Assembly: GCF_000384655.1 (NCBI RefSeq)
Contig: NZ_ARQI01000110.1
Span: 1-48,165, forward strand
Reading direction: 5' to 3'
DNA: 48,165 nucleotides
Source: Brachyspira innocens ATCC 29796
Lineage (GTDB): Bacteria > Spirochaetota > Brachyspiria > Brachyspirales > Brachyspiraceae
This document shows positions 1-48,165 of this stretch, one piece after another. The notes beneath the pieces are model-generated. The model was not told where the DNA came from. It ran no database searches and saw nothing but the letters and a program-made list of their open reading frames with translations. The translations under genes and the position numbers were made by a program. How positions within the stretch are numbered: the stretch's first letter is position 1; each line of letters starts with the position of its first letter.

Positions 1-644
1 AAACGTTCGTATCTTTTTATTACTTTAGGCATGATATTATTTACCTCCTTTAATTTTTCTTTTACTTTATCTAAATCTTTAGCCGTAAAAAACTCTATCC
101 AAGATAATATTTTCTTTTTCTTAATATCTTCTGTGTTACTATTATTTAGTATTTTCTTAAATCTCGGCACTTCCACTATATGCATTTGAACCATATCTAA
201 AACAATATCTGGATTTTCTGTGTCTATTAGCTTAAAACACCTATGGGGCTTACCCTCATCATTAAAATCCATATTGAAGTCTACAAAATTAATGCTTATA
301 ACCTCACTAATTATATCATAAGGCTCTTTTTCCTCCACTTCGCTTACTATATTCTTAGATATATAATAGTATATTCTCTTTAAAAAGTCTATATTACCAG
401 AAAGCTGTATCTCTATAATTATTTTTCTCTTATCTTTGGTAACAGCCTTTACATCAAGTACGGACTCTTTTAAGTTAATATTTTCTGGCAGATTATGAGG
501 ATTAATTATTTGTAAGTTATGCACAGTTTCAAAGCCCAAATCCTCAAGTACGGAATTTACTATGTTCTCTAGTATATCCTCGTTCCCTACAGAACCTAAA
601 AGATAGCGTACAAAGTAATCGTTCATTCTGTTTATACTACGCAT
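1..644 (-). CDS. Rpn/PDDEXK_2 family nuclease (putative transposase), 3' part cut by window edge
   Basis: Read on the minus strand, an open frame runs from the ATG at 644 to the window edge, giving about 214 codons without a stop. The protein begins MRSINRMNDYFVRYLLGS and carries ESVLDVKA followed about 12 residues later by IIEIQL. This D...ExQ arrangement is the core of PD-(D/E)XK nucleases of the Rpn type, often annotated as 'Rpn family recombination-promoting nuclease/putative transposase'. The C-terminal part visible here is lysine-rich and helical. The known role of the family is DNA cleavage that stimulates RecA-independent recombination; activity here is inferred. A second copy starts at 48080 in the opposite orientation, and their first 86 coding bases differ at only two positions, both synonymous. 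The family call is fairly sure; mobility is not shown. Confidence 0.85.
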   Translation of the reverse strand, partial: MRSINRMNDYFVRYLLGSVGNEDILENIVNSVLEDLGFETVHNLQIINPHNLPENINLKESVLDVKAVTKDKRKIIIEIQLSGNIDFLKRIYYYISKNIVSEVEEKEPYDIISEVISINFVDFNMDFNDEGKPHRCFKLIDTENPDIVLDMVQMHIVEVPRFKKILNNSNTEDIKKKKILSWIEFFTAKDLDKVKEKLKEVNNIMPKVIKRYER

Positions 645-45784: not shown

Positions 45785-45905
45785 GGGGGCGGGCGGGCGG
45801 GGTAAACAGATTGTTTAAGATTTATATTCCATTTTTTACACAATAAATTCGTTTAACTAATATTTATTATCATAATATGTTTTGAATTGATAGGTATATA
45901 AAGAA
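45785..45905 (+). repeat. Orphan remnant of the Rpn-type gene leader, with G-run motif
   Basis: Begins with GGGGGCGGGCGGGCGGGG (45785-45802) and TAAACAGA, then ATTCCATTTTTTA, AATTCGTTTAACTAATATTT and ATCATAATATGTTTTG. These correspond in order to blocks at 47878-48079. The nuclease gene that should follow is missing, and unrelated AT-rich DNA replaces it. Confidence 0.7.
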
Positions 45906-46172: not shown

Positions 46173-46201
46173 TTGACTTTTATACAAAAATTCATTAGAA
46201 T
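46173..46201 (+). promoter_or_regulatory. Sigma-70 promoter of the vsp gene
   Basis: TTGACT (46173-46178), exactly 17 nt, TAGAAT (46196-46201). Transcription should start near 46208, giving a 5' untranslated region of about 345 nt. Confidence 0.75.
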
Positions 46202-46207
46202 AAGATT

Positions 46208-46552
46208 ATAAGCAAAATGCAAGGATATACATCAGAAAAAAAGATTGCTTATTATGTTTATCTATTTTGCTTAAGTACGGAACGATAAAGATCCTCTAAA
46301 TCCTTATTATTCCTAAGTACACATAAAGCAAAATTAACGGTTTCCTAATGCCCTCTTAATTTTGCCGAGAATAAAGATCCTCTAAATCTTATTATTCTCA
46401 CTAATTTTTTATAGTCCGTTAGAATTATTCTCAAATATTCTAACGTATTGGGAAACAATATAGATCCCAATCTTTATTGTTTCCTAAAATGTTTTGAAGT
46501 TACTGCCTTATTTAAGGTATTAACTATATAAAAAAATTTAGGAGAAAAAACA
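46208..46552 (+). promoter_or_regulatory. Long structured 5' leader of the vsp mRNA with a thrice-repeated hairpin
   Basis: Hand pairing finds six hairpins in order. H1 is 46210-46272 (AAGCAAAAT/ATTTTGCTT plus an inner GATATACAT/ATGTTTATC). H2 is 46279-46313. H3 is 46328-46365 (perfect 10-bp GCAAAATTAA/TTAATTTTGC). H4 is 46367-46399. H5 is 46417-46445 (perfect 9-bp CGTTAGAAT/ATTCTAACG). H6 is 46450-46485. H2, H4 and H6 share an apex AGATCC...AATC, and H2 and H4 have the identical loop CCTCTAA. A small hairpin follows at 46501-46519, then GGAG at 46541 and the ATG at 46553. A T6 run (46405-46410) follows H4, so attenuation is possible. No convincing leader gene is present. Confidence 0.7.
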
Positions 46553-47755
46553 ATGAAAAAAGTTTTATTGACAGCTATGGCAATAGTAACATTAGCTAGT
46601 GCTTCAGCATTTGGTATGTATGGATCCGATTCTAGTTGGATTGACTTCTTAGTACATGGTAACCAATTCAGAGCTAGAATGAACCAATTAGGATTCACAT
46701 TAGGTAATGGTACTATTAAAGGTACTTTTGGATTTAAAAGCGAAAATGGTGGTGTGGCTACTCTTATTAAAGAAACACAAACATTAGGTGATCGTGGTTA
46801 TGTATTTATTCCTACAGTATCAGCTGGTATAGGTTATACTTCTGATATGATAGGTATAGGTCTTGGTTATTCTTATACACTTAGTCCAAATACACTTCCT
46901 TATAATGAATATAAAGGTGGTGCTGATTATATATATAAAGTTAAACATTTAAGTGTACATACTCCTGTATTAACAGTGAATGCTTTAAATAATAATTTGA
47001 GAATTGCTATACCTATATCTGTAGCTGTTCAAGATGTTTATAAAACTACTGAATCAAAAGCAAGAAGTACTTATGTAGGTGTATCTACTGAAACTCAAAT
47101 AAGATATTATACTGGTATAGATGCTTTTAGCTTGGTAAGATTATACTTGAAATATGGAAATAATTCATTTAATGCTTATGATCAAGATGGTAAAAAACTA
47201 AAAGGTGATGAATATAAGCAAGTAGTATCTTCATTTGGATTTGATTTAAGATTATTTTTCTTAAAAACAACTATTGGTGATGTTCTTCTTGATCCATTTA
47301 TTAAAATTACTTTTGATACAGCTTTAGATGCTAAAGGAAAAACATTAAATGGTACTGATCATTATGCTTTGACAAAAGTATCTGCTGATTCTGTAATAGA
47401 AGGTATGTATAAACCACAAGCAGGTGACCCTTCAGCAATATATGATTCAAATCCTTATGTATTACAAATACTTCCTTCTTTGGGTTTGAATGCTAGCAGT
47501 GATATAGTTACTCTTTATTTAGAACCTTCTATAGGTTATAGAGCTAGACATAATGGTTTGAAATCTTCTAAAGTAGAGCATGCTTTAAGATGGAATGCTT
47601 ACGGAGAGATTTATATAACTCCTGTTAAAGATCTTGAATGGTACTTTGAGGCAGAAGTTGGTAATGATCCTTATGCTGCTAGTGCAAGCACTGTAGCATT
47701 TAATGCTTCTACTGGTATTACTTGGTATTTACCTTCTCTTAACGGTGCTGAATAA
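46553..47755 (+). CDS. Vsp-family (Bhmp39-like) outer-membrane protein
   Basis: The 400-aa protein has a signal peptide MKKVLLTAMAIVTLASASAFG, cleaved around residue 20, and a mature part beginning MYGSDSSWIDFLVHGNQFRA. This opening is what I recognise from the variable surface proteins (Vsp/Bhmp39) of Brachyspira. The mature part is Gly/Tyr-rich with alternating beta strands, consistent with a surface barrel or sheet protein. Codon use (many GGT, ACT, GCT) suits a highly expressed gene. Ribosome-binding site GGAG is 8 nt before the ATG. It is the only vsp gene in this window, so no tandem array is seen here. It is bracketed by direct copies of the G-run repeat (45785 and 47878). Confidence 0.85.
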   Translation: MKKVLLTAMAIVTLASASAFGMYGSDSSWIDFLVHGNQFRARMNQLGFTLGNGTIKGTFGFKSENGGVATLIKETQTLGDRGYVFIPTVSAGIGYTSDMIGIGLGYSYTLSPNTLPYNEYKGGADYIYKVKHLSVHTPVLTVNALNNNLRIAIPISVAVQDVYKTTESKARSTYVGVSTETQIRYYTGIDAFSLVRLYLKYGNNSFNAYDQDGKKLKGDEYKQVVSSFGFDLRLFFLKTTIGDVLLDPFIKITFDTALDAKGKTLNGTDHYALTKVSADSVIEGMYKPQAGDPSAIYDSNPYVLQILPSLGLNASSDIVTLYLEPSIGYRARHNGLKSSKVEHALRWNAYGEIYITPVKDLEWYFEAEVGNDPYAASASTVAFNASTGITWYLPSLNGAE

Positions 47756-47877: not shown

Positions 47878-48079
47878 GGGGGTGGGTGGGCGGGGTAATC
47901 AGACTTTTAACAAAGTGCCGATTCTATTTTTTATACGGCATATATTTTCTTAAAAATCTTCTTTCCTATAAAAAAATTATAAAAAAATTTGTTTTTCTTG
48001 GCTTATTCTGCATAAAAAATTTGTTTAACTAATATTTATATATTTTATTTACTTATCATAATTTTGGAGTATAATATAA
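47878..48079 (+). repeat. Upstream repeat of the right Rpn-type gene, with G-run motif
   Basis: Begins GGGGGTGGGTGGGCGGGG (47878-47895), then TAATCAGACTTTTAACAAAG and, later, CATAAAAAATTTGTTTAACT and TTTTGGAGTATAATATAA before the ATG at 48080. It matches the left copy (645-815, minus strand) block by block, with a longer and more variable middle. Confidence 0.85.
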
Positions 48080-48165
48080 ATGCGTAGTATAAACAGAATG
48101 AACGATTATTTTGTACGCTATCTTTTAGGTTCTGTAGGGAACGAGGATATACTAGAAAACATAGT
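48080..48165 (+). CDS. Rpn/PDDEXK_2 family nuclease (putative transposase), 5' end only
   Basis: The first 28 codons of a second copy of the gene at 1-644. They read MRSINRMNDYFVRYLLGS and continue identically in protein sequence to the window edge. Two synonymous base changes separate the copies in 86 bases. GGAG lies 10 nt before the ATG. Whether the rest of the gene is intact cannot be seen. Confidence 0.85.
   Translation, partial: MRSINRMNDYFVRYLLGSVGNEDILENI

Follow-up and report, generated by a model that had tools for sequence, protein, structure and literature searches.

The window analysed here is positions 1 to 48,165 of contig NZ_ARQI01000110.1 of Brachyspira innocens ATCC 29796, whose genome (handle G000) comprises 3.28 Mb in 130 contigs. 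It carries a vsp gene, and Vsp proteins are described as the major outer-membrane proteins of B. hyodysenteriae (PMC4955376, PMC5415613). The open reading frame (ORF) begins at 46553, where a preliminary description of this DNA had placed the gene start, and matches the Serpulina_VSP family (Table 1). The promoter claimed there, TTGACT and TAGAAT separated by a 17-base spacer, is present in the window and conserved in 13 Brachyspira genomes. Because it is almost invariant among them, the predicted transcription start at about 46207-46209, some 345 bases ahead of the vsp ATG, is well supported. We refer to this long 5' leader as L, to a linker segment within it as J, and to the short leader of a second vsp paralog as S.

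L folds much more stably than shuffled sequences do (-87.4 kcal/mol, as against -52.2 +/- 4.3; z = -8.1, with 0 of 100 shuffles equal). A consensus of the leaders from 11 genomes has seven stem-loops in common, H1 to H7. In it 93.3% of cells are paired, compared to 90.1 +/- 0.4 after shuffling (0/500), and 15 pairs have changed on both sides, compared to 8.1 in shuffles (0/500) and 0-7 in slid controls. H1, H3, H6 and H7 hold the compensatory pairs, and the base of H2 adds another. Pairs were counted without the promoter, which RNAalifold, when given it, paired to part of the leader. Both the structured leader that the preliminary description had posited and the covariation it had looked to in the stems are thus borne out. 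One hairpin, with the core AUAAAGAUCCUCUAAAUCU, is repeated as H2, H4 and H6; H2 and H4 scarcely vary, and H6 is degenerate in some species. We rejected a minus-strand RNA, by a modest margin: the plus-strand consensus is better (-101 versus -91; mean single-sequence fold -84.5 versus -80.6). The plus strand is favored for this reason and because the promoter and Shine-Dalgarno sequence lie on it. An Rfam search of the whole window found no family at the gathering score; the hits in the leader were all sub-threshold, and permissive thresholds also yielded nothing, in agreement with the earlier view that L belongs to no known riboswitch or T-box class. We confirm L as a conserved, structured, previously undescribed leader RNA.

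Of 26 Brachyspira species genomes compared, 13 have L, much alike in length and order and always ahead of a vsp gene. Each of these genomes has one full copy, carried by a single vsp gene, which rules out L as a general vsp leader; the preliminary description had spoken of the leaders of all Brachyspira vsp genes, and that extension fails. A condensed copy precedes a second vsp gene of genome G008 (G008:C2:258493), consisting only of H1, H6 and H7, with a changed hairpin core and without the GATTGC loop. The L of G009 lacks the stretch between two repeat hairpins, a loss that is probably real because G009 is a single contig, and the L of G024 lacks the stretch between the next two. Such repeat-to-repeat losses are as expected from recombination between repeats.

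A different leader, S, about 90 nucleotides long, stands ahead of a vsp paralog elsewhere in the B. innocens genome (G000:C106:22351). S stands ahead of exactly one vsp gene in each of 13 genomes, and searches with a covariance model give one strong copy in every one of these genomes and none elsewhere. It is laid out as a 5' tail, a single hairpin and a segment running to the Shine-Dalgarno sequence–in genomes like G004 it reads 5'-(A)UAGAGGAUCUUUAUGGUGUCUAUUGAGUUUUUAAGCAAUCUCUCAAUAGACACUGUCAAAAGACUAUAAAAAAUUUAGGAG, with the AUG a few bases downstream. In G005 the S gene (G005:C8:429713, minus strand) is cut off after about 23 codons; its leader is intact and almost the same as that of G004. 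The proteins behind L and S are 57% identical in G000, 95% identical in G007, and 57-75% identical in the other genomes compared, so leader identity is maintained separately from protein identity. The G007 pair suggests that the coding part underwent gene conversion, with the leaders kept distinct. From gene order, our guess is that the L gene corresponds to B. hyodysenteriae vspD and the S gene to vspB. Genomes with neither leader include G011 and G012, which have few vsp genes.

Three separate elements of S are exact complements of conserved parts of L that are predicted to be mostly single-stranded, in all 11 genomes that hold both leaders (J excepted in G024). The S tail, UAGAGGAUCUUUAU, pairs with the cores of H2 and H4, and in some species H6, over 14-15 bp (8-13 in G007 and G025). 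The apical loop of S, UAAGCAAUCU, pairs with the loop of H1 over 10 bp, shortened to 8 in G002. The S segment GACUAUAAAAAAUU, just upstream of the ribosome-binding site of S, pairs with J over 11-14 bp. G024 alone lacks J; its L carries a deletion, and its S has the form GAUUAU. In G007 and G025, J has AUAAUC and S has GAUUAU, where the other genomes have AUAGUC and GACUAU–a compensatory change in trans from G-C to A-U. When J from G025 is crossed with S from G000, the duplex has only -4.2 kcal/mol in place of -8.1. The pairing is therefore conserved over 11 genomes with one compensatory change.

The complementarity of the two untranslated regions exceeds chance. Four genomes were tested with 2000 shuffles of S apiece, not one of which attained the observed coverage; for the longest match and the number of blocks, P was 0.0005-0.0025. 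The gain in energy on forming an L+S dimer is -14 to -17, compared to shuffle means of -5 to -8; in G000 it is -16, and the leaders of the other genes tested gave -10.5 or weaker. With the L of the window a single control outdid S (G020 C79 12545); it proved to be a false ORF that lies antisense to L. Among the columns of L that are complementary to S, 92% have a conservation of at least 0.9, compared to 51% in the rest of L (Fisher test, 4e-9). That the conserved positions of L are the S-complementary ones fits a pairing constraint, and is not predicted by a purely structural leader. The leaders also co-occur: 11 genomes have both, 2 have L only, 2 have S only and 11 have neither (Fisher test, 0.0012, uncorrected for phylogeny), so that 11 of the 15 genomes having either have both. 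Most genomes have L and S within a few kb of each other, but in G009 about 412 kb separates them and in G000 they are on separate contigs, and the complementarity persists; its persistence over the distance in G009 argues for pairing in trans and not in cis. From these sequence comparisons we consider it probable that the mRNAs of two paralogous surface antigens base-pair in trans through L and S.

Several observations weigh against this conclusion. The compensatory event in trans is a single one, probably from one lineage, and the S tail of G007 holds a mismatch. Conservation is 91% over the whole of S, which leaves its pairing segments indistinct within it. When about 27,000 real 92-nucleotide windows were used as controls (antisense copies of L excluded), the exact-match coverage of S was in the top 0.01-2%, depending on the genome, and AT-rich windows sometimes equalled it; A/T runs match with ease, which makes this a weak control. 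S was not found in the L-bearing genomes G018 and G020, nor L in the S-bearing G014 and G022, all four being drafts of 50-250 contigs. Binding of J is predicted to free L's own ribosome-binding site only weakly. Lastly, there is partial colinearity between S and the antisense of the J-H5-H6 part of L, so an ancient inverted duplication may underlie part of the complementarity. Carried further, this idea would make all of it a functionless relic of inverted duplication between leaders, to which the weak match of the S model to the antisense of the H4-H6 region (E about 0.15) lends something. We hold this to be improbable, because the match in the H1 loop does not fall in the order that an inversion would give, the exact matches have been kept while other segments of L diverged, the cores of H2 and H4 are invariant, and a compensatory change is present.

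The conservation of unpaired parts also bears on whether L might work in cis only, stabilizing or tuning its own vsp mRNA in the manner of ompA-type 5' stem-loops, with the match to S incidental. Stabilization of this kind, raised in the preliminary description, may occur, since H1 starts where transcription is predicted to start and so forms a 5'-terminal stem-loop; the structure is strong and conserved, and the products have been described as major outer-membrane proteins (PMC4955376). The loops of L are nevertheless among its most conserved parts, and loops and linker together are conserved like the best stems and match S at three separate places. An ompA-like role leaves this unexplained and trans pairing with S accounts for it, so we judge a cis-only leader unlikely. 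Pairing of J in cis with L's own ribosome-binding site was considered and set aside: it is possible yet weak, and varies by genome (1-70% of J).

A run of six T residues does follow the fourth hairpin, as first noted, and in the RNA it is a conserved U tract 4-5 nucleotides past an invariant hairpin. Attenuation at this point, suggested at the same time, would end a short RNA, possibly a small RNA (sRNA) acting on S. However, a search of the L region showed nothing resembling a terminator, only U5 is present in three genomes, and the tract falls inside the 13-14-nucleotide segment J, where conservation and compensatory change reach past it into AUAGUC and match the other vsp leader; an attenuator is accordingly very unlikely. 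Nor do the sequences look like a stand-alone sRNA, since L and S both run into a vsp gene.

The remaining alternative lies in S, whose tail might be conserved for ribosome binding at a small upstream ORF (GAGG-N6-AUG, 18 codons in genomes like G004) and not for pairing with L. Most S leaders do have an AUG after AGAGGAUCUUU, but it is missing in G007, G025 and G002, and in G000 and G009 the frame has no stop. We rejected this ORF because its frame and start vary between genomes; it would also leave the matches of the loop and J unexplained, and we give it the least credence of the alternatives weighed here.

If L and S do pair in trans, the first contact could be a kissing interaction between the loop of H1 and the apical loop of S. 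The S tail would then invade the repeat hairpins H2 and H4 (sometimes H6) from their CCUCUA loops, and J would cover S just upstream of its Shine-Dalgarno sequence, hindering 30S loading. The L mRNA would in this way silence the S mRNA or mark it for cleavage, and expression of the two surface proteins would become interdependent, perhaps mutually exclusive. The contacts are those supported by the sequences, and from them we infer an order of steps, a sign and an outcome. L probably represses S. The opposite sign, in which pairing would protect or activate S, is possible; protection in particular has to be taken seriously, since the predicted 5' end of S lies in its tail (compare the hly-prsA2 pair, below). 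We do not claim reciprocal activation, because S is predicted to open the ribosome-binding site of L only weakly. More tentatively, the kissing loop, the repeated hairpin acting as a sponge, and the antisense to a ribosome-binding site might make up a two-leader RNA switch that chooses the antigen without DNA rearrangement, the leaders retaining their identity as the proteins behind them diverge or homogenize.

The window and its relatives have some further features. Perfect four-tract G-rich motifs (of the type GGGGGCGGGCGGGCGGGG, capable of forming G-quadruplexes) are found at 45785-45802 and 47878-47895 on the plus strand and at 798-815 on the minus strand. They thus lie on both sides of the vsp gene of the window, and similar motifs are near the L-carrying vsp gene in G004, G005, G006 and G009. 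G000 has about five of them, two of which, in the window, are directly upstream of copies of one ORF. The two ends of the window (3-644 on the minus strand and about 48080-48165 on the plus strand) each begin one shared ORF (MRSINRMNDYFVRYLLGSVGNEDILENIV...), which we take to resemble the PD-(D/E)XK transposase-like nuclease family. The window may end at repeats that broke the assembly. In another vsp gene, G010:C1:2130501 (L018 1550-1565), AATAGAAAAAGG replaces the AATGAAAAAGG of its relatives, so its usual start codon seems to be lost.

Table 1. Features of the long leader and its vsp gene in the window.
Feature	Position	Strand	Evidence
Promoter of L, TTGACT-N17-TAGAAT	46173..46201 (TTGACT 46173-46178; TAGAAT 46196-46201)	+	(nearly) invariant, 13 genomes
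Leader L (5' untranslated region), seven stem-loops	46207..46552	+	fold and consensus
H1, stem at predicted 5' end, conserved loop, compensatory changes	46208..46274	+	consensus
H1 loop AGAUUGCUUA, complement of S apical loop UAAGCAAUCU	46242..46251	+	10 bp in 10/11 genomes; 8 bp in G002
H2, first repeat hairpin	46279..46313	+	consensus
H2 core AUAAAGAUCCUCUA, complement of S 5' tail	46285..46298	+	sequence match
H3, variable stem, 4 pairs changed on both sides	46328..46365	+	consensus
H4, second repeat hairpin, invariant	46367..46399	+	consensus
H4 core AUAAAGAUCCUCUA, complement of S 5' tail	46371..46384	+	sequence match
Segment J AAUUUUUUAUAGUC, complement of S at about -28..-14 of S AUG	46403..46416	+	sequence match
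H5	46417..46445	+	consensus
H6, third, more degenerate repeat hairpin	46451..46484	+	exact 14-nt S-tail complement in G004, G005, G006, G008
H7	46498..46525	+	consensus; similar hairpin then TATAAAAAATTTAGGAG ahead of several other vsp genes
Shine-Dalgarno AGGAG	46540..46544	+	sequence
vsp gene, 400 aa	46553..47755	+	PF05540 Serpulina_VSP, E 6e-125

Proteomic studies report strong differences between strains in the Vsp that is produced, and the portions of those papers that bear on this give no mechanism (PMC5415613, PMC4955376). Leader-leader pairing would offer a concrete, testable RNA mechanism for this strain-dependent choice. Our literature search turned up no post-transcriptional mechanism for vsp and no study of 5' untranslated regions or sRNAs in Brachyspira. 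It likewise yielded no case of two paralogous surface-protein leaders that match at three contacts and include a binding hairpin in repeated form.

Several known systems resemble L in part. RNAIII of Staphylococcus aureus is a long structured RNA whose hairpins with pyrimidine-rich loops pair with mRNA leaders, targeting many Shine-Dalgarno regions. L is likewise long and structured, with several hairpins that have pyrimidine-rich loops; unlike RNAIII, it has an exact partner in one paralogous leader, whose 5' tail its CCUCUA loops would pair with. Stabilizing 5' untranslated regions of the ompA type are long leaders with a stem at the 5' end, ahead of a gene for an outer-membrane protein. L shares all of these properties; what sets it apart is the conservation of its loops and linker and their complementarity to another leader. 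According to the account in PMC8079631, the SreA/SreB riboswitch acts in trans on the prfA 5' untranslated region. Here too a structured 5' leader would act on the 5' untranslated region of another mRNA, but SreA is the product of a terminated riboswitch, whereas L has no match to an Rfam ligand class and no terminator was found in it. The hly-prsA2 pair of Listeria monocytogenes consists of two mRNAs that pair in trans via untranslated regions (Ignatov et al. 2020, as cited in PMC8079631 and PMC8406224), with the pairing at the mRNA 5' end blocking RNase J1, as PMC8079631 relates. L and S resemble it in pairing, as proposed, through untranslated regions and at the very 5' end of one partner; they differ in being the 5' leaders of paralogous surface proteins, with three contacts, one of which is repeated two to three times. 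Regions of mRNA that act in trans are thus already known (hly-prsA2, SreA-prfA; PMC8079631, PMC8406224); the L-S pair, if it works as proposed, would be a rare case of paralogous mRNAs regulating each other directly through their leaders.
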